Shown in pieces: positions 6,823-33,606 of a DNA stretch of 33,606 nt. The number at the start of each line of letters is the position of its first letter. Position 1 is the first letter of the stretch. The DNA lies in the IMG/VR virus record IMGVR_UViG_3300037502_001028, positions 1 to 33,606 of that record. The stretch is one strand, 5' to 3'. This DNA is from a virus. The notes beneath the pieces are model-generated. The model did no database searches. It was not told the origin of the DNA and saw only the letters and a list, made by a program, of their open reading frames with translations. A program made the translations under genes and the position numbers.

Positions 6823-7562
6823 TAGACACCTAACGCTCTCTTGAACGCATCATAGAATCCGAAGATAGAGCGTTGCTTAGCCTCATTGTTATTTGATAGT
6901 TGCTCATAAAGATAAGTCTTTGGCTGAAATCCTGCAACATCTGTACGTTGCTGAACTCCATTAACCACATCACCATAAGTAGTTGAAGCCATATTCTTTG
7001 GATTGGCTAACTTCTTTTGAATCCGCTGGGTATATTTAGCTACTTCATCTTCAGTAGCGCCACGTCCAAGCACATCTGTGAATACCTCATTGATGGTTTC
7101 TTTAATAGCTTCAGGACGCAGTTCCTGTTTATAGCGTACAGTGGTAGGACCCTTATCTCCACCTGTACCAGCATTAGACTGTTCTTTTAAGAATGTAGTT
7201 AGGTCATACTTGTTGTTATCAAAGAAGCCTGGGTCCTGCTGGAAGCGGGTAACAATCTCATCATTTAAGTCGCGGCTTGCATTTAAGAAAGCCTCACGGA
7301 CTCTGATGTTAAACTTGCTTGTTACAGGGTTTCCATAGCCTGCATCCTTTAGCTGCTGTGCTAAAGCCTGACGCATAGCAGGTGACATATTGCGGTAGGT
7401 TTGAACCAAACCTGATTCAGTCTGCTGCTTTGTTTGTGGGAGTCTAGCCAAGCCAGCTTGGAATGGTACGCGAGCGCCAGTGCTAGGTGTGGCTGAAGTG
7501 ATTAAACCGCCCTGATTAGTTTGGTTGTAATTAGCTCCGCCGGTAGGCGTTGTCATACTCAT
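6822..7562 (-). CDS. Probable virion-associated protein, 246 aa
   Basis: Residues 1-50 are Gly/Thr/Asn/Gln-rich and probably unstructured (TTPTGGANYNQTNQGG). The rest is helical, including RNMSPAMRQALAQQLKDAGY and, near residue 160, NEVFTDVLGRGATEDEVAKY. That last stretch resembles the 'vLGR.p...ev.yw' helix-turn of DUF4214-type repeats, but the match is short and may be chance. It lies one base after the 1586-aa gene and overlaps the 552-aa gene, so the three are almost certainly co-translated. Function unknown; a virion protein by context. Confidence 0.55.
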   Translation of the reverse strand: MSMTTPTGGANYNQTNQGGLITSATPSTGARVPFQAGLARLPQTKQQTESGLVQTYRNMSPAMRQALAQQLKDAGYGNPVTSKFNIRVREAFLNASRDLNDEIVTRFQQDPGFFDNNKYDLTTFLKEQSNAGTGGDKGPTTVRYKQELRPEAIKETINEVFTDVLGRGATEDEVAKYTQRIQKKLANPKNMASTTYGDVVNGVQQRTDVAGFQPKTYLYEQLSNNNEAKQRSIFGFYDAFKRALGV

Positions 7563-7563
7563 C

Positions 7564-10500
7564 TTATCTCTCCCTCAGGAAGTTATAGAACAGAACATCA
7601 TAAACGCCCTTGGCGTTAGCATTTGTCAGAGCAATATCTCTTATCTGGTTGATAGTTGTCTCACGCAATACATCACGAGCGCGGATATCTACCTCAGACA
7701 TTGAGTTATAGACTGTATCTTTTTGAATCAAGTAGTCTTCATATAGCTTAATCATTTGGCTGATAGCGCTAGTTGCTTGATTCTGAACCTTGCCAGACAT
7801 AACAAGTTTCTTTAAGTCTTGATAAGCGTTCTCACGCTTTGGCTGATTAACTGCAGCCTCTGCAAAGTCTTGTATTAGCAACGGGCGAGTCTGTCTGAAC
7901 TCAGTAGACCAAGCGCTCCATACTTCATTGATACGCTTGCGCTCGCGGTCAGTTCTAGCCTTGGCCAACTCTGCCTCGTAACGGTCCTGCTCTTGATAGT
8001 AGAACTGTTTGTCACGTGCTACGAATACTTCCTTCAGATAATCTCCAACGAGTTTATTTTCGCGGTATCCGTTTTCTTTTAGGAACTCGTAAGCATCCCA
8101 GGTAAAGGTTCCAGCCTGTGGCATCAAGAATGCTGCACCTTCAGGGAACTCTTTGACCAAAGCCTCATTGTCTTGTACCCAGTTAGCTGCCGCATTGGAT
8201 GTCTTAACGCGGGCCTGGAATACTGGGTCAGACTCATTAAGGGTATACGGAACTTCATTCGGAAAGTACTTAACCCAGTCTGCCATAGCATTACCAACAG
8301 GGTCTGTGGTGTTGCTGTATTCATCAATTAACTTAGAGAATACCTGCTTGAAGTTAACGCGACCATTGTCACGTACCCACTCTGCCATATCGCTTTTCAG
8401 CGTTGTGGTTGGTGATGCAGGTGAAACGAATCCAAGTACGAATCTTGTAGTAAGAATACCTGAGATTGTGGCACGTAGTTTCTTCTGATACTCAGCCAAC
8501 TCACCAGGAGTTGCGGTAGCAGATGGAGTCTGTCCTGCAGCCTCTAAATAAGTTACTGCTTTACGGAAAGCTGATGCGTATTGGCTGTCGCGCTCATCTC
8601 TATCGACGGACGCTAGGAATCTATTGACGTGTCCTGGCAATACTGCCTGCCAGAAGTTCTGAGATTCACCGATTTCACCAAGAGCTAAACGCTCAGTTGC
8701 CTTGATTTCCTTAGCAATTCCGCTGACTAGAGGGATATTAGACTCTGTAAATAAACCAGCGGTATTGTAAATCAACTTCATACTGAGACCAGATAATGGA
8801 CCAGAGAATGTTGGTAACCATCCTTCAGGGTTAGCCGAAGGTGTAAGCATTCTGATGGATGAACCAAACTGCAATGGCATTGGTGCTACGAACTTGTCAC
8901 CAAGTCCGAATGCTCCAAGCATCTTGTTAACTGCTCCATATACCGGAGCCAAACCTGGGTAGATAAAGTAGGCATCACCTTGGTCATCTTTTTGTACATA
9001 ACCTGAGTGAGTTACGCCTTCATAAGTCAAGGCTAGTTTCTGTAATTGCTCTGGATTGTACTTAACTGTGCGATAAGCACGGCGGTAAGCATCCTCAGTA
9101 GCACGATAGAAACGTGCAAAGTTACGCATAGACCAAGCCATCTGGGTACGAACCGCAGGGTTATCTACGAATGCTAGCACTCGCTCTACCGCTAAATCAT
9201 TTGAAAGTTCAACTACCCGACGGGTTGCTTCTTCTTTACCTAGTACTCTAGTTAGGTCATCTAGGTAGCCTTGCATATCTTTGCGGATGCTAAAGGCTGC
9301 ATCTAGTACCAACTGGTCACGTGATAGACGTGCGTTGGCATCTCCCAACCAGTCCCATAGACGGTTATTTAGGTCAGAGATAATGTTATCTGACTGCTGT
9401 GCTGGGATAAAGCGTGGACCCTGGATAGAACGTGGTACATCTGCAGCAGTTCTAGGTAGCCAATCGCTCTTAAAATCTTTTAGATTGATAACTGCTTTAC
9501 CTGTATCATCTACAGTAACTAACTTGTTTAGCAAGTCATCATTGATAGAACCATCTGCTCTACCCATCAAAGCCTTCAAGTCGTCATACACAACACCAGC
9601 GTGGGCTGTAGATTTGTAGTTCTCATCCACATAACGGTCAAATCTATTCTTGTATTTAGGCAAGATATTGTTATCTAGATAGTTACTAAGCTCGTTAATA
9701 AAGCCCGTACGGTCATCGCGGTACTTATGTAGTAGCTTTAACCCTTCAGAACCAACCTCATCGTTTGACTTGGCTGCAATCTGGAATGCCCAGGCTAAGC
9801 GGCCCTCTTGGTCTAGCGGGTCAAGGCTAGCAAAGGAACCATACTGGCGGGTATACTCAACATCATCGAATGTAAAGTCAATAACTTTGCCATTCTTTCT
9901 GACGCTCTTGTTAATTCTAGAGAAGAAATCGTTACCTGCGTTGAAGTTATAGGCACCTTCAGATGCTGCTTTTAGTAGGTTTTCATAGTTGCCATACATA
10001 GCAAACTCGTAGGCATACTGGTCAAAATCGCTACCAAACTTGCCAATCTGTGCATCATTAAACTTATCGCGTAGCAATGCTTCAGCGAATACTTTACGCT
10101 TGGCTATGTCTTTTTCTGCAGCGGTAGTAAATACCTCATCGATGCTATCCCAGGTCTTTGTTGCTGCATTATAGCGCAGTTCTGAACCCTTATCAATCGC
10201 ATTAAAGCGAGCAACCAGGTTATCTACATCCTTGGATTTAGCATAGCGGTTAAACAAAGCAAAGTTAAGTTCTTCTGAACCCTGGATAGTCTTCTTTGCA
10301 ATCTTGCGGGCGCGTACTACATCTTTAGCTGAGCGAATAACACCCTTACCGTTGACTACATAGAACAGATAATCTTCAATAGCGTTACGAACTGGGAATC
10401 TTGGACCAGCAAGGGTACCTGTTACGAATACACCAACTGCATCATCTGCAGCTTTGCTGTATTGCAAACCCCAAGCCTTAGCAAGAAAGCCATCTCGTGC

Positions 10501-12324
10501 ACCAAACTTATCTAGTTGGTCTGGAGTAATGAAAGCAAGTCTGTCTTTTAGCTGATAGACATAAGCCGCTGAATCAACACCGTTGATACGTGATGGAATA
10601 ATGCCATCTGGGTGGTCAGCATCAAATATGCGGTTGGTATAAACAGCATCACGGCCTACAGAACCTAGAGTTTCTAGCAGTTTACGTCCACCAGGTGTAC
10701 CGCGTAGTCCGCGAAGTTCACCTACTGCTGACTGCAGGCCAATAAACATCTCGCGACGCTGGGCAACGTTACCAGTTTTGTAAGCGTCACCTAAAATCTT
10801 TGAAGCATAACGTCCATAAACTAGGCGAGCGTACTGTTCAAACGCTCTAGCCGACTTCTCGTTGGCGAAATCGCCAAGAAGACCCATATCTGGAATCAAA
10901 GCAAACTTACGAGTGAAGTTATCTAGGCGGTTATTAGCCCAAGCAATAGAAAACTTCTTGAATTTCTCTGCGCCTTGGATACGTTCTGCAGTTTTAGCAC
11001 CGGCGGTAATAGCATCTACACCTTCGCCGCCCATAATTGAGCGACGTGCTGCCTCTAATGAGGTAATACCCTTGTAATCAGCTTCATCAAATACGATGTT
11101 ACGCAAGAATGTAGCGGAATCTTCATTAAGGTTGAATGTTCTACCTGCTGCAGTAAGAGAATCGATACGCTTTTTACGTAGCGGGCTTAGAATTGGCATA
11201 ACCTTGGTGGTCCAACCAGGCTGTCCGTAGAAAAGCGGAGTAACTCTTTCTGGAACCTGCAAGAAAGCCTTAGCTGTATCTATATCAATCTTGCCACCGA
11301 AGTCAGAATCAGCAAACTTGATAAGCTCTGTATCTACTCCATTGTCAACAAATGATGGATTTAGTCTACGTAGTTTAGTTGTAGCTACAGCCACACCTTC
11401 TGCGCTGCCTGAGGTGCGAGCCTTACGTAGTTCATCGGTAGTCTTAGCAAACTCATCCCAAAATCTAACAATGCCTGCATTTTGAAATGCAAAATCTACT
11501 TTTTCTGCAGAGCCTATGGTCTTATCTAAAGCGTACTTGCCAGCAAGATAACCTTTACGTGCTTTACCAAGTAATAGTGTTGGGTCTAGGAATACACGAA
11601 AAGCTGCATCTACAGTACCTGAAATCCAAGTATAGAGTTTACCTTTTTCTAAATCTTCAGGAAGTAGCAAGTTAGCAACATCGCGGCCTGCAGAGTACTT
11701 AGCAGCATTTACTTTGGCTACTGCTTCTTGAGTAAGTGCATCTCCGCCATCTTGTGCCGCTGCTGCTGCAAGTGCTTTTTGATTCTCATTTTGAGCAGTT
11801 GCAATAATCTTATCTGGTGCAAGCCCTGCAGCAATTTGCTGCGCTACCCAGGTACGGTCTGCACCATACTGCTGTGTAACCTTTTCAATACGGCCTGGGT
11901 TAAATACCATCTCGCCGTTAGCACCGCTACGTCGCCAAGCATCTGCAATGTTAAGTTGCTCTTGAGTTGCAATAGTACCTGCACGATAAACGCGGGTCAC
12001 TTGGTCAGATGCCCAACCAGCGGCCTTGAATACAGCCTTGATAGGTTCTACAACTGGACGAGAAATAATATAAGCGGCTTGTCCGATAACTCCACGATTT
12101 GGATTTGAGTCATCTGCTTGACCGAAGTATGCGGCCATAGCCTTTTGTTGTTCAGGTGTTAACTGATTAAACTCAGATTGGGCAACGTTGACAGGCATAT
12201 TGCTTAGACGGGTATGGGTTGAGTACATACCGGTAAGCGCTTTGACAGTCTCCATCTGAGATGGATTCAGGTTAGCTTTTTTGGCAGCCTGATAAACGTT
12301 TCCTTTATCTAGGTCTTGAGCCAT
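7564..12324 (-). CDS. Giant virion protein (candidate internal/ejection protein), 1586 aa
   Basis: By far the largest gene here, about 14% of the window. The protein is soluble and mainly helical, with Ala/Lys/Asp/Tyr-rich text throughout and several amphipathic or weakly hydrophobic stretches (residues about 75-110, VIGQAAYIISRPVVEPIKAV, and around 235-255). I see no lysozyme, protease, polymerase or Walker motif. Near residue 1120 is a MAWSMRNFARFYRATEDAYR stretch with many aromatics that may be a conserved core. Its size and place, downstream of portal and small head genes, recall T7 gp16 or N4-type ejected proteins, but the position between portal and scaffold differs from T7. Its start overlaps the TAA of the 133-aa gene by one base (TAATG). 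A tape measure is the alternative. Confidence 0.65.
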   Translation of the reverse strand: MAQDLDKGNVYQAAKKANLNPSQMETVKALTGMYSTHTRLSNMPVNVAQSEFNQLTPEQQKAMAAYFGQADDSNPNRGVIGQAAYIISRPVVEPIKAVFKAAGWASDQVTRVYRAGTIATQEQLNIADAWRRSGANGEMVFNPGRIEKVTQQYGADRTWVAQQIAAGLAPDKIIATAQNENQKALAAAAAQDGGDALTQEAVAKVNAAKYSAGRDVANLLLPEDLEKGKLYTWISGTVDAAFRVFLDPTLLLGKARKGYLAGKYALDKTIGSAEKVDFAFQNAGIVRFWDEFAKTTDELRKARTSGSAEGVAVATTKLRRLNPSFVDNGVDTELIKFADSDFGGKIDIDTAKAFLQVPERVTPLFYGQPGWTTKVMPILSPLRKKRIDSLTAAGRTFNLNEDSATFLRNIVFDEADYKGITSLEAARRSIMGGEGVDAITAGAKTAERIQGAEKFKKFSIAWANNRLDNFTRKFALIPDMGLLGDFANEKSARAFEQYARLVYGRYASKILGDAYKTGNVAQRREMFIGLQSAVGELRGLRGTPGGRKLLETLGSVGRDAVYTNRIFDADHPDGIIPSRINGVDSAAYVYQLKDRLAFITPDQLDKFGARDGFLAKAWGLQYSKAADDAVGVFVTGTLAGPRFPVRNAIEDYLFYVVNGKGVIRSAKDVVRARKIAKKTIQGSEELNFALFNRYAKSKDVDNLVARFNAIDKGSELRYNAATKTWDSIDEVFTTAAEKDIAKRKVFAEALLRDKFNDAQIGKFGSDFDQYAYEFAMYGNYENLLKAASEGAYNFNAGNDFFSRINKSVRKNGKVIDFTFDDVEYTRQYGSFASLDPLDQEGRLAWAFQIAAKSNDEVGSEGLKLLHKYRDDRTGFINELSNYLDNNILPKYKNRFDRYVDENYKSTAHAGVVYDDLKALMGRADGSINDDLLNKLVTVDDTGKAVINLKDFKSDWLPRTAADVPRSIQGPRFIPAQQSDNIISDLNNRLWDWLGDANARLSRDQLVLDAAFSIRKDMQGYLDDLTRVLGKEEATRRVVELSNDLAVERVLAFVDNPAVRTQMAWSMRNFARFYRATEDAYRRAYRTVKYNPEQLQKLALTYEGVTHSGYVQKDDQGDAYFIYPGLAPVYGAVNKMLGAFGLGDKFVAPMPLQFGSSIRMLTPSANPEGWLPTFSGPLSGLSMKLIYNTAGLFTESNIPLVSGIAKEIKATERLALGEIGESQNFWQAVLPGHVNRFLASVDRDERDSQYASAFRKAVTYLEAAGQTPSATATPGELAEYQKKLRATISGILTTRFVLGFVSPASPTTTLKSDMAEWVRDNGRVNFKQVFSKLIDEYSNTTDPVGNAMADWVKYFPNEVPYTLNESDPVFQARVKTSNAAANWVQDNEALVKEFPEGAAFLMPQAGTFTWDAYEFLKENGYRENKLVGDYLKEVFVARDKQFYYQEQDRYEAELAKARTDRERKRINEVWSAWSTEFRQTRPLLIQDFAEAAVNQPKRENAYQDLKKLVMSGKVQNQATSAISQMIKLYEDYLIQKDTVYNSMSEVDIRARDVLRETTINQIRDIALTNANAKGVYDVLFYNFLRER

Positions 12325-21305: not shown

Positions 21306-21694
21306 GCTTCCTCCATAGGAAGCTGCTTGGTTGCCTCAATTAAATCTACAACCTTAACTAGATAACCGCGAGAAAGATTAGGCGGTATCTCACAGGTAAT
21401 ATCTCTGCCGAAAGTATTAACGGCATACCAGAGAACTGTGGTAGGTAGCATAATCACAGTCTTTTTCAATACGAAAGCCCAATACTCTGCCTCAGTTACA
21501 GCTAGCCCTGAAGGTGCCCACTTATTATCTTTGGTAAAGAAACACTCGACTTCAATATAAACGTTGCCAGTTAAGTGCCACTTCCTATCGCGCTTTACCT
21601 CTATGCGCTTACCCTCAGTAAGTAACTCTTCAACTAACTGCTCACCCTTCCTTCCGTAGGAGAAGTCAAGGTCAAAGGATGATTTATTTGTCAT
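21302..21694 (-). CDS. PD-(D/E)XK-type nuclease, 130 aa
   Basis: The motif order is an N-terminal DLDFSYGRKGEQLVEELL helix with a Glu, then KRIEVKRDRKW (the E-x-K core at about 32-34), then NVYIEVECFFTKDNKWAPSG and a helix TEAEYWAFVLKK. This matches small PD-(D/E)XK proteins of phages (IEVKrD ... TGNiyIEvE ... psGl..T.AdyW). A role in host DNA breakdown, recombination or junction cleavage is likely. The ATG at 21694 is preferred over an upstream TTG (21703) because it overlaps the sigma gene stop (TAATG). Confidence 0.75.
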   Translation of the reverse strand: MTNKSSFDLDFSYGRKGEQLVEELLTEGKRIEVKRDRKWHLTGNVYIEVECFFTKDNKWAPSGLAVTEAEYWAFVLKKTVIMLPTTVLWYAVNTFGRDITCEIPPNLSRGYLVKVVDLIEATKQLPMEEA

Positions 21695-22332
21695 TAGTTC
21701 CAAGGACTTTCCCCGCCGAGAATAATCTGTAATTTTCTCAGGGAAGAATTGACCTTCCTATCAGCAGTAGATACCGCACAGCCTAGGTACTGTGCCAACT
21801 CCTGAAGGGTAAGGTTGTTATGGTAACGCTGGATTAGTATGTCTTTGTCAGCCACCTCTAGCTTGAGGTAAGCCTTCTTAATATCTATAAGGATTGCTAG
21901 CAGGTTGCCACCTTCAGCGGGAGCTGACTGCTTGCGTGGTTGCCCGTCGTTAATCATCTCTTGTGCTTGCTCTAATACTGTGCCATCTAACACCGAGGCT
22001 ATGACGTGTGGTAGTAGCTGAGCAATAACTACTGTGTCATAGAAAGACTCATCGCCTATCTGATAGCCAGACTTCTTAGCCTTCTCCTTGCGAGCATAGC
22101 GCTCGCAATGACGGCGCATCTGCCAACTGATACGCTTCTCATTTATAGTTCTTTGTAGTGCGTTCTCTTCATTAAGTAATTCAGCGTAGTGCTCAGCTCT
22201 TGACATAGCCCAGGCGTAGCACTCTTGAGTTACATCATCTCGCTCTACCCACTGGCGATAGCGACGATAGATACTGCCCGCCACCGGCGGGACTAAATCA
22301 TAGAACGCGGGGTGCAGTTGGTTGTTGCTCAT
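21694..22332 (-). CDS. Phage RNA polymerase sigma factor (sigma70/ECF-like)
   Basis: 212 residues. The N-terminal part (VAGSIYRRYRQWVERDDVTQ, then ECYAWAMSR at about 16-45) fits sigma region 2, where the -10 element is bound. The C-terminal 55 residues (KDILIQRYHNNLTLQELAQY, then LGCAVSTADRKVNSSLRKL) form a region 4 helix-turn-helix that would bind the -35 box. The middle is a charged linker. It should redirect host RNA polymerase to phage genes, probably late ones. It is far down the early operon, consistent with a delayed switch. Confidence 0.82.
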   Translation of the reverse strand: MSNNQLHPAFYDLVPPVAGSIYRRYRQWVERDDVTQECYAWAMSRAEHYAELLNEENALQRTINEKRISWQMRRHCERYARKEKAKKSGYQIGDESFYDTVVIAQLLPHVIASVLDGTVLEQAQEMINDGQPRKQSAPAEGGNLLAILIDIKKAYLKLEVADKDILIQRYHNNLTLQELAQYLGCAVSTADRKVNSSLRKLQIILGGESPWN

Positions 22333-27339: not shown

Positions 27340-27920
27340 AGGTATTTATCCGTTACGTCTCGGAACTCCTTTTCGATATCTGAATAACCTGGTGCTTGAC
27401 CAACTAACGCTGGCTTAGCACAGTACGCCTTGATGTGTGGATGTCTTAATGATAGCGCAATGTCAATAGGTTTTGGGTTATAGACTTGCGAGAATGCTTC
27501 TTGCATATACTGCTGGTTAATACCGTAGGCGTGAGCCGAGTAGTTCTCAATCATCTTTACTACACCATCTGCATATGGCTCACTTGCTATATGCCAAGCA
27601 CCGAGATATAACATATCCCAGTCCTGCGGTATCTTAGAATAGAACTGCGGGAACTTGATATCAAAGTCATCTACAAACAAAGCATCATCTTCAAAGACAA
27701 GTAAACGCTTTACGCCATCCTTAATGGCTTGCTTCATAACACAGATGTGGCTTTCTTTACAAGCCCAGGTAGGCGGTAGCTTTGGTGGGTCAGCCACTAC
27801 CGCCGAGAACCTGTCATACTTAATACCAAACCTCTTGGCTTGAGCATCAAAGGCTTCCAACCTGTCGGTTCTACTGTCTAGGTTTATAACAACTATCCTG
27901 TCAAAAATGTCGTTTAACAC
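27336..27920 (-). CDS. Glycosyltransferase, family 25-like
   Basis: 194 residues. IVVINLDSRTDRLEAFDAQA at about 9-28 is the family 25 N-terminal mark (vvNLdxrxDRl), LLVFEDDALFVDDF at about 73-86 is the EDD metal-binding motif, and DMLYLGAWH matches the 'D.iyLG' segment. Family 25 enzymes transfer galactose or related sugars to lipooligosaccharide or protein. Phage versions are found near replication genes. It starts with GTG overlapping the helicase stop (TAGTG). Confidence 0.8.
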   Translation of the reverse strand: MLNDIFDRIVVINLDSRTDRLEAFDAQAKRFGIKYDRFSAVVADPPKLPPTWACKESHICVMKQAIKDGVKRLLVFEDDALFVDDFDIKFPQFYSKIPQDWDMLYLGAWHIASEPYADGVVKMIENYSAHAYGINQQYMQEAFSQVYNPKPIDIALSLRHPHIKAYCAKPALVGQAPGYSDIEKEFRDVTDKYL

Positions 27921-28753
27921 TAGTAACGTACCTCAGCATTATTGCGACGAACCATCCTGCCTATCTCATCACAATTTTCTATCCGGCAGGTAGCGTAGTC
28001 AACAAACAACGGCACGTGCTGGTCAGCATTGGCATACATAGGACCGAAGCGATTCTTTACCGGAGCCACACGCAGTGTGCCTTCCAGCGGAGAATAACCT
28101 AGTGTAAGTATCAGCGACGGAAGCTGAGATACCTTACCGTGAATGGCTCGTCTAGCAGGTGGTGTGGTGGTATCACCATACTCACCTTGTTCTGATACGT
28201 GGTGCAATACCATAACGCAGGCTTCGGTTTTCCTAGCCATATCGTGTAGCTCCATCATTATCTGACGTAAGCCAGCCCATTCGTTTTCACTCTCGGCTAC
28301 CACGTTCATCAAGTTATCTATAACTATCAGTTCTGGTGCTATGCCATAGACTTCAACGTAGGCTTTTACTTCTAATTCAATGTCATCTAGTGACGGGGAT
28401 GAATCAAATACCCACTGGATATGAGTCATATCCTGCAGGTACTTGTCATAGTACTTAGGATTGTTTTGTAAGTTAGTCTCGACACTGACCTGTCCGTGAC
28501 CTGACAGTGCCGAGGCTACTCTAATCATTACCGTTGCAGTATCTGTATCTGCCGAGAAGAACAAAGTTGGAACCTTTGCTCTGATGGCATAGACCAAAGC
28601 AAACATAGACTTTCCAGCGTTAGGTGCAGCGGCAACCATACACACTTGACCGCGCCGAAACTTTATCTGTTTACTACTTAAGTCTTTCCATACATCGGGC
28701 AAAGGCATTGCTTTAGTTGTTACGCTGCTCCACGCACGTGACAGCTTAAGCAC
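27920..28753 (-). CDS. DnaB-like replicative helicase / RecA-fold ATPase
   Basis: 277 residues. The core has Walker A AAAPNAGKSMF (about 42-51), a TLFFSADTDTATVMIRVA segment, Walker B PELIVIDNLMNV at 140-151 (Asp as the metal ligand), then VMVLHHVSEQGEYGD and later SLILTLGYSP. This is the RecA-like motor core of DnaB-type helicases; the N-terminal primase-interaction domain of DnaB is missing. A replicative helicase working with the split primase is likely; a RadA/Sms-like recombination ATPase is the alternative. Starts with GTG overlapping the WhiB gene by 8 bases. Confidence 0.8.
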   Translation of the reverse strand: MLKLSRAWSSVTTKAMPLPDVWKDLSSKQIKFRRGQVCMVAAAPNAGKSMFALVYAIRAKVPTLFFSADTDTATVMIRVASALSGHGQVSVETNLQNNPKYYDKYLQDMTHIQWVFDSSPSLDDIELEVKAYVEVYGIAPELIVIDNLMNVVAESENEWAGLRQIMMELHDMARKTEACVMVLHHVSEQGEYGDTTTPPARRAIHGKVSQLPSLILTLGYSPLEGTLRVAPVKNRFGPMYANADQHVPLFVDYATCRIENCDEIGRMVRRNNAEVRY

Positions 28754-29012
28754 TGCGTTCCTCCCTCGGTAAAACTGTCCCTCGTCTTCTTCTTATTGCG
28801 GTTCTTTCGTGGGCTGTAAGGCCTCCCCATACACCAAATCTTTCAAATTTGATGCCCCATTCTGCACACTCAGCTTTATGGATACAGTTGTTACATATAT
28901 TTCTAGCGTAGACAATATCTCCATTGGTGCCGTATCCCTGTTCAGGGAACCAGGCATCACCGTTTCCTGTTTGTGCACATAGCGGAGCCTCGTAGTGACG
29001 TGGCTCTCGCAT
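28746..29012 (-). CDS. WhiB-family Fe-S transcription regulator
   Basis: 88 residues. The four cluster Cys are 12, 40, 43 and 49, with the last three as CNNCIHKAEC (C-x2-C-x5-C), followed by EWGIKFERFGVWGGLTAHER including the GVWGG turn at 60-64, then basic AIRRRRG. This is a complete WhiB protein. WhiB regulators are essentially confined to actinobacteria and their phages, so this is the best host indicator here. Phage WhiB proteins bind host sigma factor and can repress host genes. It lies beside the helicase within the early operon. Confidence 0.95.
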   Translation of the reverse strand: MREPRHYEAPLCAQTGNGDAWFPEQGYGTNGDIVYARNICNNCIHKAECAEWGIKFERFGVWGGLTAHERTAIRRRRGTVLPREERSA

Positions 29013-29016
29013 TTAG

Positions 29017-29373
29017 TTACCTTACCCAGATTGTTGGGCACTTGTCTGTAGCTCCTTTAGGAGCAGCGCACATATAACCTTTCCAAGGTCCTTTAGCGCC
29101 AGTACCTGTACGGAACTGCATCTCTCCGTGCTTACAGGTATGACCGCCGTCTATGGCAACTGTTGGTGCTGCCTGTGGTGCACCAGTACGTACGGGCGCA
29201 GACGAAGCAACGCCTCCGAAAGATTGGCTAACGCTTCCAATAAGGGTGGAAAAGTCCTGCGCTGCAGTTAGCAACGCTTCTAGTTCCTCCTTGCTTGCAG
29301 CGTAAAGATTGATAAGAGTTCCATCAGGTGACTTAAAGTTAACCTGGAACTTAGTTGATTCTGGTGCAGCCAT
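29017..29373 (-). CDS. Putative ssDNA-associated protein with C-terminal zinc motif, 118 aa
   Basis: The N-terminal half is a compact alpha/beta module (TKFQVNFKSPDGTLINLYAA, then SKEELEALLTAAQDFSTLIG). A flexible Ala/Pro/Thr-rich linker follows, and the C-terminus (CKHGEMQFRTGTGAKGPWKG, then YMCAAPKGATDKCPTIW) has C-x-H plus two Cys in a zinc-like 'CxHg.m..r.g...kGpWkGyfCp.p....C.p.w' pattern. I recall such tails in phage proteins placed next to Cas4/RecB-type nucleases, as here. A single-strand binding or nuclease-accessory role is likely but unproven. Confidence 0.6.
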   Translation of the reverse strand: MAAPESTKFQVNFKSPDGTLINLYAASKEELEALLTAAQDFSTLIGSVSQSFGGVASSAPVRTGAPQAAPTVAIDGGHTCKHGEMQFRTGTGAKGPWKGYMCAAPKGATDKCPTIWVR

Positions 29374-30312
29374 TTACTTTCCTCCGTTGTGTTTAATCGA
29401 AAGCCTTGCGCTTTCTTTGCCCTGCTTAGTTGGCACGAAGCCCAGTGCTTTCTCCACCGCTTCTTTGTCAACTGTATTTGTTTGGACTGTTGTCCATTTA
29501 ATCTCGAAACCAGATTGAGTTACGCCGAGTAATCCAGCAAGTCCTTCTCTTAAGGCTTCCTTTCGTTCGGTCAGTTCCTTAATCTGGTTGTCGAGTTGTA
29601 CATATTCCATAGCAGAGGAGTCTGCATCTGGATTATCTATCACTGGTAATTCAGTTTTTGTAACTTCTTTTTTTAGACCAACGCATCCCATCTCGCCTGA
29701 TGCGTCATAGAACTTGCAATAGAATTTGCAGTACGACTCATCGCGTTCCGGTGCTGGTGCTTCAGCAGATTCCTTAATAGCAGCAAGCCAGTCGAGGGCT
29801 TCTAAAGCTATCTTCTCATCATAAGGTTCTGAGTGGACTTTGATATCTCGCTCATCACCATCTCTTGGTATGGCTACCAAATTGACAGTCTTGACCTTCC
29901 CCTTGCCAGACTTCTCAATCAGGTAGCCATAAGTTTGTACCTGCCAGCGCTGTTGTTGGCTCGGGAAGTAGCTTAGATTCTTAGCCTTAACTGTCTTCCA
30001 GTCAATGACATCTCCTGAGTCCGGTAGGAAAGCATCAACGTGAGCCTTCATTCCGTTGTATTCAACGGTAGTCTCTAGCATTATTGAGTTGTTACCAGCG
30101 AAAGCAGTTTCGATTGCTGAATGTATTGCCGTGCCCATTATGGCAGCTAGCTTTAACTCATTCTCGTTTGTCTCTGGCTGGTTGTTGAGTCGGTACCAAA
30201 CCTTACGGCGGCACCCACCCAATTCTGATGGACCAATCTGCACCTGTGTGCTACGTGGTCTGTTGTTTTCCTTGTCGTGCAATGCTTTAACAAGTAGTTC
30301 TTTTATATCCAT
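29374..30312 (-). CDS. Cas4/RecB-like exonuclease with Fe-S cluster
   Basis: 312 residues. Four Cys at 34, 195, 199 and 210 (GPSELGGCRRKVWY at the N-terminus and YCKFYCKFYDASGEMGC) form an AddB/Cas4-type Fe-S site. The PD-(D/E)XK core has GTAIHSAIE (His 64), MKAHVDAFL (Asp 93), VIDWKTVKA (D-x-K at 104-106) and QVQTYGYLIE. The C-terminal 80 residues add a helical arm (YVQLDNQIKELTERKEALRE). The ATG at 30312 is chosen over a GTG at 30321 because AAGGTGG lies five bases before it. It should resect DNA ends for recombination or replication. Confidence 0.85.
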   Translation of the reverse strand: MDIKELLVKALHDKENNRPRSTQVQIGPSELGGCRRKVWYRLNNQPETNENELKLAAIMGTAIHSAIETAFAGNNSIMLETTVEYNGMKAHVDAFLPDSGDVIDWKTVKAKNLSYFPSQQQRWQVQTYGYLIEKSGKGKVKTVNLVAIPRDGDERDIKVHSEPYDEKIALEALDWLAAIKESAEAPAPERDESYCKFYCKFYDASGEMGCVGLKKEVTKTELPVIDNPDADSSAMEYVQLDNQIKELTERKEALREGLAGLLGVTQSGFEIKWTTVQTNTVDKEAVEKALGFVPTKQGKESARLSIKHNGGK

Positions 30313-30485
30313 TTCTGCCACCTTGTAAATGTAACATTAAAAAATAGAAAGTTCAACTGAAATATAGATGCTTCGTGAAAGCCTTCGGGATGGGCGTATA
30401 ACTTATAATAATCAAAACCCAAAGCAAAGTTATTTATGTAATGACGATTGATATGAACGGTATATCTACCAGTATCTTTCTTCAT
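30303..30485 (-). CDS. Small conserved phage protein, aromatic-rich, 60 aa
   Basis: The ATG overlaps the TAA of the peptidase gene (TAATG). Content: NFALGFDYYKLYAHPEGFHE, then a hydrophobic FQLNFLFFNVTFTRW, typical of a small phage protein with 'GfdyyK.YaHPEGfh...i.lLFFN..f.rW' that I recall from many genomes without a known role. The many aromatics suggest a small beta-type fold, and it may attach to membrane or other proteins. Confidence 0.65.
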   Translation of the reverse strand: MKKDTGRYTVHINRHYINNFALGFDYYKLYAHPEGFHEASIFQLNFLFFNVTFTRWQKWI

Positions 30486-31048
30486 TAGTACTCCTTATCT
30501 TGAGTAACCAACTGTATGGGTGGGCAAGTATTAACGTCAAGCACCGATGCAATTTCCACAGCTCTTCGGGCGTGTCGCTCTACTGTGGCAGGTTTGAGAT
30601 TACTGCCCAAGCCGTAAAGATAACCAACAGCGAAAGAACCACCCGACCCCAGACCGTAGATTCCAACGTCATTCTTGATGAACGATAAGTCGACAGCAAT
30701 GTGGAATAGAGTTCCGTTGAACGCAACGAGGTAATCAAAGCCTGAATCTTTATCTTTGCCTGTTTCATATGGTTCATATCCATTCTCTTTGAACGCCGTG
30801 ATTATGGACGGCAGAACTTTCTTACCCATCCATTGGATAGGGTCTGCACCTTTATACACAGGTGGTTTCCAGTTGTAAGCCAAGATGTCACCAGGGCGCG
30901 AATCGCCTGTAATACCCAGCAGGTACTTACCAACGGAGATTATCTTTGGCGTGGATGTACTTACGGTACGTAAGTTATCCTCAGTGATTTGGGAATCTGC
31001 CGCAAGAACACAGCGGTCAGGTAGTTGGACTCCTACTAACGTTGTCAT
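30485..31048 (-). CDS. Proteasome beta/HslV-like Ntn-hydrolase peptidase
   Basis: 187 residues, close to HslV (about 175). The protein opens MTTLVGVQLPDRCVLAADSQ; after Met removal the Thr is residue 1 and the Asp of LAADSQ falls at 17, exactly as in proteasome and HslV. A Lys follows at 34 (TPKIISVGK; 33 in relatives) and GLGSGGSFAVGYLYG (132-146) supplies the 'GSGG' turn with the later Ser. There is no propeptide, unlike most actinobacterial PrcB. No HslU-like ATPase gene is in the window. It is the first gene of the early operon. Likely a self-compartmentalised peptidase; the partner ATPase is unknown. Confidence 0.85.
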   Translation of the reverse strand: MTTLVGVQLPDRCVLAADSQITEDNLRTVSTSTPKIISVGKYLLGITGDSRPGDILAYNWKPPVYKGADPIQWMGKKVLPSIITAFKENGYEPYETGKDKDSGFDYLVAFNGTLFHIAVDLSFIKNDVGIYGLGSGGSFAVGYLYGLGSNLKPATVERHARRAVEIASVLDVNTCPPIQLVTQDKEY

Positions 31049-31076
31049 AGTCCGTAAATTTTACCCTCTCTACGGC

Positions 31077-31094
31077 GTGTCGCAACGGCGACAC
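31077..31094 (-). other. Perfect 7-bp hairpin in the early operon leader
   Basis: GTGTCGC (31077-31083) pairs with GCGACAC (31088-31094) around a 4-base loop (AACG). It ends 29 bases before the peptidase gene start. Like the stem at 17449-17475 it contains GTGTC/GACAC arms, so the two operon leaders may share a regulator or RNA-stability element. Confidence 0.55.
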
Positions 31095-31215: not shown

Positions 31216-31452
31216 ATGCTGTGGCTCCGTCTACTCCGCCTGCGGAAAAATAGTTTACCACCAATACAGGCCTCTGACTTAAGAGGTGTCGGTCCGACGC
31301 ATCAATGCGTCTGCGGATGTACAGTCTTTAGTACATATGTCCAGTTTGATAACTATGAAATCTGTTGGTATGCCCTGGATGTACAGTGTGCTAACTGTGG
31401 CAACCTTCTTAAAGCTCCTTGCCCTATAGACAATCCCGATATTCAGGCATAA
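31216..31452 (+). CDS. Lone rightward Cys-rich protein, 78 aa
   Basis: The only rightward gene on the right side. AGGAAGGAG lies 12 bases upstream of the ATG. Residues 1-22 are basic and hydrophobic; the core GVGPTHQCVCGCTVFSTYV, then FDNYEICWYALDVQCANCG and LLKAPCPID, has Cys at 31, 33, 35, 50, 58, 61 and 69, a likely zinc-binding beta module (CxC ... CxxC) of a type I recall from actinophages. The TAA overlaps the A-tract of the opposing terminator. The function is unknown. Confidence 0.7.
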   Translation: MLWLRLLRLRKNSLPPIQASDLRGVGPTHQCVCGCTVFSTYVQFDNYEICWYALDVQCANCGNLLKAPCPIDNPDIQA

Positions 31453-31488
31453 AAAAAAAGAAGGCCCCAGGATTTCTCCCAGGGCCTT
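31451..31488 (-). terminator. Strong intrinsic terminator of the lysis operon
   Basis: On the leftward strand AAGGCCC...GGGCCTT pairs, extended by two wobble pairs and three inner pairs to a 12-bp stem closed by a GAAA tetraloop, followed by C and nine T (from the A-tract at 31451-31459). It lies 18 bases past the holin stop and ends the late transcript. Stem 31461-31488. Confidence 0.92.
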
Positions 31489-31505: not shown

Positions 31506-31691
31506 CTACTTTGCTCCTCGTCCGAAGTCTCCTGCAGACGGGTCTAGCCACTTAAGAACTGGACCAAGGAAGCCTGCTAGAGCTGCTGCTCCGAGGGTCT
31601 TGACGTCAGTTTCTCCTGCTAGGTACAATGCAATAGCAGCGGATGCTGCAGCACGGAACCAAGTAAGTGATACTTGTTTTAGAGTTTCCAT
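31506..31691 (-). CDS. r1t-like holin
   Basis: 61 residues. One or two short hydrophobic helices (WFRAAASAAIALYLAG, about 11-26, and LGAAALAGFLGPVLKWL, about 33-49) with a VKTLGAAA connector and a C-terminal LDPSAGDFGRG tail are those of r1t-type phage holins (W.Raa..aaiA.ylaG......l..A...G...p.lrwLDP). It lies beside the endolysin and holds the last position before the terminator. It would permeabilise the membrane to release the endolysin. Confidence 0.8.
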   Translation of the reverse strand: METLKQVSLTWFRAAASAAIALYLAGETDVKTLGAAALAGFLGPVLKWLDPSAGDFGRGAK

Positions 31692-32204
31692 TTATACTGC
31701 CTTTCTTTTTGGATTGTGAACCTTGCAGCAGGTACAAACTTCTACCTCTGCAACCTTCTTTTTAGGCTGAGGTTGTAACTTAGCCTTTACCTGGTTCACA
31801 ACTTTAGGTTGGTTCATCCACCAGAACCAAGGACTAATGTCCTTTGCCTTCTCAGGCAGGATGGATATATGTAAATGTTTTGTGTGCGGATTGCTACCGG
31901 TGTATGCCCTATTTCCTTGCTTCGCATATTTACGGTTCCAAATCTTTTTGTTGAAGATTAGATATGAGACTCGCTCATCTTCTTTTAGTTTCTCAAATAT
32001 GACAGCACAGTCAACCCCATTGTCTGGGTCGTGAGTCAAGTCAACAGCAAGACCGGTGTTGTGGTCGCTGTTTGGACTCTGCTTGATGTGTGCCGATGAG
32101 GGCAATAATCCGTCGGACAGTTTCTTGCGCTTCGGCCACAACGCTGTCGCCTGACGAAGCACAGCAATAGCAGCAGGTGTTGCACGTTTTGCAACAGGTT
32201 TCAT
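31692..32204 (-). CDS. Endolysin, M15-type zinc peptidase
   Basis: 170 residues. PNSDHNTGLAVDLTHDP (44-60) has the metal ligands His 48 and Asp 55, and NPHTKHLHISIL (105-116) has the final HxH with His 110 and 112. This is a D,D-carboxypeptidase/L,D-type M15 (VanY-like) domain that cuts peptidoglycan cross-bridges. The C-terminal 35 residues (VNQVKAKLQPQPKKKVAEVE, then VCTCCKVHNPKRKAV) are basic and contain a CTCC cluster, possibly a cell-wall binding tail or metal site. No signal peptide, so it needs the adjacent holin. Confidence 0.88.
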   Translation of the reverse strand: MKPVAKRATPAAIAVLRQATALWPKRKKLSDGLLPSSAHIKQSPNSDHNTGLAVDLTHDPDNGVDCAVIFEKLKEDERVSYLIFNKKIWNRKYAKQGNRAYTGSNPHTKHLHISILPEKAKDISPWFWWMNQPKVVNQVKAKLQPQPKKKVAEVEVCTCCKVHNPKRKAV

Positions 32205-32207
32205 CTG

Positions 32208-32411
32208 TCATCTCCTAATAGCTTCCTTGACTAAATCAGTTAGCAGGTCAACCTTTTCTTCAAGTCGGTCAACCTTGTCTTTCATACTGCCACCACCGTT
32301 GGGCTTTAATTCAGATAGGTAATGTTTTGTCAAGAACTTAACCAATGCAGCGTGTGCTGCGAATATGGTTGTAAGTGCTGCGGCAAGGCCTGCCCATTCA
32401 GTGGGTGTCAT
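32208..32411 (-). CDS. Holin-like membrane protein with cytoplasmic coiled coil, 67 aa
   Basis: One hydrophobic helix at about 4-27 (EWAGLAAALTTIFAAHAALV), a short linker with GGGS, then a coiled coil MKDKVDRLEEKVDLLTDLVK ending EAIRR. This is a common lysis-cassette accessory layout in actinophages (second holin or LysB-type regulator). It abuts the tail protein gene and precedes the endolysin. Confidence 0.65.
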   Translation of the reverse strand: MTPTEWAGLAAALTTIFAAHAALVKFLTKHYLSELKPNGGGSMKDKVDRLEEKVDLLTDLVKEAIRR

Positions 32412-33606
32412 TTATACGCTCCGGATTGTAACTATCAAGATACCTCCGAAACCGGAGAATCTTTTATCGGTAGGGGTGCGGTTGATAAAGTCCATCTCTT
32501 CAATCAACCCAATGTAAGACTCTCCTGTACGGAAGTCTTCGATACGGATGGAATCTCCTGCATTTTCTACAGTTTCTAATTGCTGCATTCTGTCCCAAGC
32601 ACGGCCGTCATAGCCAATCATTACGCCGAACTTATCTGACTCTCTGTCAAAACAGAGCAACGGGTATTGAATCAAACGTTGACGTGGGACTGCTGGCAAA
32701 GCCTTTAATTGGTAGCCAGTAAATAGTGGACCCTTAGTGTTATCAGTAGAACTGCGGGTCATAGTAAACTTAAAGCCAAGATACTCTTGTGGTCCTACTG
32801 GGTAGTTGACATTGACTTCCTGAATCAAACCAGTCTGAGCAAAGTTACCAATAACAAACTCTGCATCCGTTGAGGTAACTGAACGTACTACTAGGCCACC
32901 ATTGGTTGAGTCAAAGCGAGGGAAGATAACCTTATACAGCTTGTTCTCTGTGGTGTTGTAGCGGATATAACCAGTTTGCAGATAACCAGATGCAACTAAT
33001 CTTGTATCAGATTCAATATAGACAGAGCCATTAGTAGTAGATGTAGCGTTAGTTGTAAACGCTAGACGCTCTGTACCGTTAATAAAAGCACAAGCTGTAG
33101 TTTCGTGGTTGGTATTACCGCTGGCATTGTAGGTGTCATAAGCATACGGAAATACCAATGGTGCAACCTGTATCGACAGGTCAAGGCGGATAGTTCCTGG
33201 CTCATCATCTACGCTAGTAGCAGCCCAAGCAAATCTGTCACGGAAAGCAAAGTCATAGACAGGCTGAGTGTTCTCCCAGATTAGCGGTCCATAGGCTAGT
33301 GAGCCATCATCGGACACAACTGCAGCTCTAATACCCTTGGTTGTACCAATCATCATATAGCCAAGGTAATAAGCAATTTTATAAACGCGCTCGCCTGCAG
33401 GCATTTCAGCAGCAGTAATAGCACTGGTCAAGGTAGGCATAGTTCCATTGGATGCCAGAGTAAACTTCTGGATATTGGACTGTGTTCCTGAGAAGCCTGT
33501 GCAGTAGATAGCAGCACCAGATGAAGTGATGCTGGTATACACAAAGTTATCTACTGGGTGGGTATAGACAGCGGTAGGTAAGGATGTGGCTGCAGTAGAA
33601 ATCTCA
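32412..33606 (-). CDS. Tail/virion structural protein, beta-propeller-like (5' end outside window)
   Basis: The frame stays open to the right edge (398 residues visible), so the gene begins beyond 33606; a GTG at 33542 is an internal codon at best. The sequence is a series of beta-hairpin units with W/Y/F and Asp/Gly turns (YYLGYMMIGTTKGIRAAVVS, PVYDFAFRDRFAWAATSV, ERLAFTTNATSTTNGSVY), which suggests a beta-propeller or beta-helix structural protein. Its place before the lysis cassette fits a tail or tail-spike protein. No enzymatic motif is visible. Confidence 0.6.
   Translation of the reverse strand, partial: EISTAATSLPTAVYTHPVDNFVYTSITSSGAAIYCTGFSGTQSNIQKFTLASNGTMPTLTSAITAAEMPAGERVYKIAYYLGYMMIGTTKGIRAAVVSDDGSLAYGPLIWENTQPVYDFAFRDRFAWAATSVDDEPGTIRLDLSIQVAPLVFPYAYDTYNASGNTNHETTACAFINGTERLAFTTNATSTTNGSVYIESDTRLVASGYLQTGYIRYNTTENKLYKVIFPRFDSTNGGLVVRSVTSTDAEFVIGNFAQTGLIQEVNVNYPVGPQEYLGFKFTMTRSSTDNTKGPLFTGYQLKALPAVPRQRLIQYPLLCFDRESDKFGVMIGYDGRAWDRMQQLETVENAGDSIRIEDFRTGESYIGLIEEMDFINRTPTDKRFSGFGGILIVTIRSV

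Follow-up and report, generated by a model that had tools for sequence, protein, structure and literature searches.

Mycobacterial PrcB carries a propeptide and has a PrcA partner. The Betaproteobacteria proteasome homolog BPH (5ovs, 5ovt, and 5ovu) forms a double ring, has no propeptide, and no unfoldase partner has been found for it; epoxomicin binds and modifies its Thr1, and no activity on standard substrates was seen (PMC5777263). Phage-borne proteasome homologs have been described as well, namely PPH and AAH (Fuchs 2021; PMC8665760) and CDS-113 of Alteromonas phage V22 (PMC7289586), and BFVD gives further matches of this type. PPH is defined as about 140 aa long and lacking helix H2; no actinobacteria-specific phage encoding AAH was found, and neither a co-occurring AAA+ partner nor a context hint was seen for such homologs (Fuchs 2021; PMC8665760). 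Although phage proteasome homologs are widely annotated, we found none whose function has been tested by experiment. The kind of protein considered below is already known; new here is its setting, and an unusually informative one, i.e., an apparent core gene with two slots in phages of hosts without a proteasome. No description of PPH, AAH, or PHROG_1040 presents them as core genes that occupy one of two slots.

The analyzed DNA (the window, a virus record of 33,606 nucleotides) is largely colinear with Planktophila phage LanE43-AprE7 (OX376640; E7), with identities of 46% for terL, 51% for the portal-type protein, 52% for MCP, 72% for lysin, and 43% for DnaB; portal, MCP, and scaffold are common to E7 and the phages of the window type. 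E7 lyses Ca. Planktophila strain LanE-43 (PMC10202952). From the colinearity with E7, the presence of WhiB, and a GC content of 44–48%, we infer that the host of the window phage belongs to Nanopelagicales. A sequence-only reading of the window had proposed a proteasome/HslV-like peptidase, and an open reading frame is found exactly there; its coordinates and those of the surrounding features are given in Table 1. The protein starts with MTTLVGVQLPDRCVLAADSQITEDNLRTVSTSTPKI (translation of ORF 31048..30485).

Table 1. Features of the peptidase locus, in window coordinates
Feature	Position	Strand	Remarks
Downstream run: Cas4/RecE-like exonuclease, L5 gp49-like protein, WhiB, DnaB-like helicase	27920..30321	minus	
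orf60, predicted all-beta	30303..30485	minus	60 aa; start overlaps peptidase stop (ATGA type)
Proteasome/HslV-like Thr peptidase	30485..31048	minus	187 aa; ATG start, Met-Thr start, without propeptide
Thr1 codon (predicted nucleophile)	31043..31045	minus	directly after start codon; read from sequence
Promoter-like site TTGCGA-16-TAAAAT	31058..31085	minus	-10 ends 9 nt before ATG
Palindromic operator-like element GTGTCGC-N4-GCGACAC	31077..31094	.	overlaps -35 region
Intrinsic terminator between lysis cassette and peptidase operon	31461..31488	minus	12-bp stem, T9 tail
Upstream neighbours: tail-type protein (376 aa), membrane-type protein (67 aa), lysin-like protein (170 aa), holin-like protein (61 aa)	31506..33542	minus	

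Comparison with family models shows a whole-length match to PHROG_1040, "peptidase HslV family" (E 9.8e-22), a Pfam Proteasome match just under the gathering score (21.6 vs. 22.4 bits), and a weak match to the NCBIfam archaeal beta model. The profile built from 37 viral family members matches, far beyond chance, PDB chains of HslV (5e-14), BPH (1e-12, residues 2–184), and PSMB5 (1e-7). The AlphaFold2 model, for which the family alignment contained the window and IMG/VR sequences only, has pLDDT 89.3 and pTM 0.86; it is an alpha-beta-beta-alpha Ntn sandwich with four helices (residues 50–58, 70–88, 137–150, and 156–170), and the C-terminal H5 is absent. In the structure search (VIA), 1000 of 1000 chains have Z of at least 8. 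The best match is the BPH–epoxomicin structure 5ovt (Z 19.7, 3.0 Å, 175 residues, 26% identity), and further matches are yeast beta5 (Z 19.6), E. coli HslV (18.9), and M. tuberculosis PrcB (3mi0; 18.6); Z against BPH, HslV, and proteasome beta ranges from 18.5 to 19.7, and the modeled fold is equally close to HslV and to the proteasome. Residue 2 of the model superposes on Thr1 of the structural matches. By sequence and fold, membership in the proteasome/HslV superfamily of N-terminal Thr hydrolases is confirmed. Loss of the T1, K33, and D17 equivalents and a match to a non-peptidase Ntn family were looked for in the alignment and the structure, and neither occurs; the best sequence and structure matches contain no non-peptidase Ntn family. 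PADLOC gave no match that would assign the peptidase to a defence system.

The residues expected of an active Thr peptidase, as listed in the sequence-only reading, are all present and conserved across the viral relatives, of which IMG/VR contains more than 590. In an alignment of 37 diverse viral members, D17, K34, G47, and both glycines of GSG are invariant, and the nucleophile at position 1 is Thr in all but one relative, which has Ser; the window protein has the GSGG turn and the oxyanion glycine (G47). The lysine one residue past the canonical K33 is, judged by alignment, no anomaly or defect: B. anthracis HslV (3ty6) aligns gap-free from T1 to the same Lys at position 34. The predicted lack of a propeptide also holds, since 140 of 170 homologs start with MTT and 24 with VTT (GTG start), and most of the 170 have an in-frame stop 2–5 codons upstream of the start. 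The median dN/dS of the family is 0.155, i.e., the gene is under purifying selection. By analogy with BPH, which is inert on standard substrates (PMC5777263), intact residues alone would give no proof of broad proteolysis.

Among the described systems, BPH shares with the window peptidase the Met-Thr start, the lack of a propeptide and of an unfoldase in view, the compact subunit without the C-terminal H5, and, less clearly, a loop before S7 carrying 3–6 acidic residues. This loop in the window peptidase, YEPYETGKDKDSG, has four acidic and two basic residues, and E7-type and Arthrobacter-type relatives have 4–6 acidic ones; the pore loop of BPH is more acidic than that of the window protein. 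BPH differs further in being a chromosomal bacterial gene with other operon contexts, and its ring is known, that of the phage protein predicted. HslV (ClpQ) shares T1, D17, the Lys at the spacing of Bacillus HslV, the GSGG turn, and the fold (Z about 18.5–18.9); however, the NCBIfam HslV equivalog scores fall far short (24.3 bits vs. 137 for PRK05456 and 22.4 vs. 157.75 for TIGR03692), and HslU is absent from phage and host, so neither equivalog score nor HslU partner makes the peptidase HslV proper. Mycobacterial PrcB has the same fold and nucleophile, but its propeptide and PrcA partner have no counterpart here: the protein has the Met-Thr start, each phage record has one gene of the family, and host-type genomes have no PF00227. 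PPH is set apart by its own description (PMC8665760), the window protein being 187 aa long with both helices, while the compact group I build of the model is compatible with AAH. Homologs of the same family, 25–35% identical and all in phages of actinobacterial hosts, are found in Planktophila phages LanE43-AprE7 and F5 (OX376640/1), where the gene, 33% identical in E7, lies behind portal, unlike in the window; in Actinomycetia phage DSL-LC01, where it adjoins whiB; and in Arthrobacter phages Hum25 and Pitbull, where it lies among small genes near the genome end. A chromosomal source in Actinomycetota was considered and rejected: the scan of genome contigs revealed no relative, and 396 genomes gave one weak partial match.

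The strong terminator behind the lysis genes and the promoter-like site support, at the sequence level, the peptidase gene as the head of its transcription unit. The claim that it is the first gene of a leftward early operon stands in this part; "early" is inferred, since the structural genes run in the same direction. TANNNT is found within 30 nt upstream of the start in 78 of 79 window-type loci. With the -10 element this close to ATG and no Shine-Dalgarno at the window peptidase, its mRNA is probably leaderless. The palindrome GTGTCG...CGACAC is present in 76 of 79 window-type upstream regions, 23–30 nt before the start, and nowhere else in 776 kb of window-type loci; its inner bases vary, and the dyad is often retained. 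GTGTCG-N-CGACAC was not found upstream of the E7-type exonuclease operon, hence the putative operator belongs to the window-type peptidase promoter. This highly specific palindrome might be bound by the WhiB protein of the phage, by a sigma-like factor that the phage encodes, or by some protein of the host. A sigma-factor-like protein (phrog_354) is encoded at 21694–22332 (minus), near the end of the replication run, and is also present in E7 (30%).

Directly downstream of the peptidase, orf60 is found in 80 of 80 window-type loci, with conserved sequence and, in most of them, with the start/stop overlap. It was not detected in E7-type loci and has no Pfam, PHROG, or INPHARED match; its all-beta model has pLDDT 78. 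In one relative (L041), a 151-aa HNH-endonuclease-like ORF just before the end of the peptidase gene (about 7500–7960) overlaps that end, possibly a homing insertion next to orf60. Each of the four upstream neighbours has a correspondingly placed homolog in E7. A 78-aa Cys-rich, possibly zinc-binding ORF (31216–31452, plus) lies on the opposite strand in the gap that precedes the peptidase; its E7 homolog (44%) lies elsewhere.

Comparison of loci reveals two slots. In the first, that of the window type, the gene lies behind the lysis cassette, where the contig allows this to be seen, and heads the replication operon. In the second, that of the E7 type, it lies directly behind the portal gene (79 of 80 E7-type loci), in the structural operon and with a AGGAGGGGAC-like ribosome site (Shine-Dalgarno). 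The two types form separate clades, with FastTree support of 0.97–0.98 each; more distant homologs sit among PhoH, ribonucleotide reductase, thymidylate synthase, or small genes. Exactly one copy is present in 24 of 24 related records, which had been chosen for carrying the gene, and in each of the 10 records that were sampled through lysin or portal genes, not through the peptidase, and that measure at least 37 kb. The peptidase is absent from seven lysin- or portal-sampled records, which, at 20–34 kb, may be fragments. Where a long record extends to the replication genes but has no peptidase behind lysin, an E7-type copy is present elsewhere. Among 80 close portal loci, none has the peptidase at portal; the window gene itself lies 16 kb from the portal gene, away from the location of a prohead protease, and the portal-side location is seen in E7-type relatives only. 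The copy counts, the portal and lysin sampling, and the separate clades point to a core function whose gene has been relocated, and not to sporadic cargo. As the operon context differs between the two slots, any claim of early action is weakened.

The gene content of the hosts bears on how the peptidase could work. No PF00227 protein is found in the LanE-43 genome or in five other complete genomes of Nanopelagicales relatives, and PF00227 is absent from 118 of 121 genomes of the order; the remaining three (G037, G062, and G113; L195–L200) keep an apparent prcA/prcB pair, so that proteasome loss in the order is apparently near-complete. Neither Mpa nor HslU is found at curated cut-offs in the six host-type genomes, while ClpX is present in 6/6 tested. 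In line with the sequence-only reading, the window and nine related phage records contain no gene of the AAA_2/Clp/HslU type. Its suggestion that the peptidase is recruited by a host unfoldase is not supported for Mpa/ARC, Mpa being absent as HslU is, and is left with ClpX; its other suggestion, mixing with host proteasome subunits, is not supported either, as the six host-type genomes and 118 of the 121 genomes of the order have no PF00227 partner to offer.

The likeliest reading, in our view (probability roughly 0.55), is that the phage provides a Thr peptidase which assembles by itself, works without an AAA+ partner, and has a role in takeover and replication. The protein would be a Thr peptidase of the proteasome superfamily with the compact build of bacterial group I, like that of HslV and BPH. 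Removal of the initiator Met by the methionine aminopeptidase of the host would expose Thr1; the subunits, by analogy with BPH, would form a closed ring or double ring; and unfolded or flexible proteins and peptides would be cut without a dedicated AAA+ unfoldase. As the likely host has neither proteasome nor HslV, the phage would add a proteolytic compartment rather than modify one. In the window type the peptidase would be the first product of the replication-gene operon, made from its own palindrome-controlled, probably leaderless promoter, with translation coupled to orf60; in the E7 type, where its gene follows that of the portal, it would be expressed as part of the structural operon. 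Most likely it would serve to clear particular host or phage proteins while the phage takes over the cell and replicates.

The E7-type slot fits a role in morphogenesis equally well. The slot behind portal is the classical one of a prohead protease, the gene there has structural-operon signals, the peptidase is single-copy and core, and no other protease family was recognized among the head genes, all of which would suit an enzyme that processes the scaffold, the portal, or internal proteins of the virion during assembly, in place of the usual prohead protease. Yet in window-type phages, which have portal, MCP, and scaffold in common with E7, the gene belongs to the replication operon and has a promoter to itself; the close portal loci have no peptidase at portal; the copies in distant phages lie among PhoH and nucleotide-metabolism genes (ribonucleotide reductase, thymidylate synthase) and not head genes; and the presence of a distinct scaffold gene points to a kind of capsid for which cleavage is often unnecessary. 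We regard head morphogenesis as unlikely on balance, and put on the same level a phage ring on which host ClpX, or another Clp or FtsH ATPase, docks and is diverted to new substrates. ClpX is a relative of HslU and is available in the hosts, the phage encodes no unfoldase itself, and the fold resembles HslV no less than it does the proteasome; against this, the dedicated partners HslU and Mpa are missing from the hosts, BPH, which matches best in structure, is without an unfoldase (PMC5777263), and no AAA+ partner was seen to co-occur with such homologs (Fuchs 2021; PMC8665760).

Still less probable is a monomeric or specific Ntn enzyme, for example a protein ligase similar to connectase or a protease that processes a single substrate, with orf60 as a possible partner or target. 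The connectase demonstrates that the fold can serve as a specific ligase (PMC8665760), and orf60 is an invariably present, translationally coupled neighbour in the window type; however, the model has the compact HslV/BPH build without the helical insertion of connectase, and the E7-type phages retain the peptidase with no orf60 detected. A role as proteasome antagonist, in which the protein enters or poisons the PrcA/PrcB rings of the host or is brought in by Mpa/ARC, is very improbable. The similarity to PrcB of M. tuberculosis and the three genomes with an apparent prcA/prcB pair speak for it, but PF00227 is missing from nearly all genomes of the order and from the six complete host-type genomes, Mpa is not above cut-off, and a conserved Thr1 with the full catalytic set would be needless for an inert decoy; for the likely hosts, antagonism and Mpa recruitment are largely ruled out by gene content. 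A wider proposal, which we hold only tentatively, is that this phage lineage depends on a self-sufficient proteasome-type compartment in hosts without proteasome or HslV, either as an essential takeover protease or, as the E7 slot hints, as a morphogenesis protease with the proteasome fold. To our knowledge, the latter mechanism is known in no tailed phage.

Nanopelagicales is one of the most abundant freshwater bacterial orders, and its members mostly have no proteasome/HslV background; in its phages the peptidase appears as a core, single-copy gene under a dedicated candidate operator. The lineage is a common virus family on freshwater bacteria without a proteasome of their own, and the peptidase is apparently a fixed part of it. 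Since Planktophila strain LanE-43 is in culture together with its phages E7 and F5, the role of the peptidase is directly testable.

Two other proteins shared by the window and E7 stand out. The 93% identity between an 88-aa ORF (877–1143, minus) and its counterpart in E7, against 25–72% for most of the other shared proteins, may reflect recent exchange or extreme constraint. A 1586-aa protein of the structural module (7564–12324, minus) has no Pfam or PHROG match and is 27% identical to a 1764-aa E7 protein; it is perhaps an internal or ejection protein.
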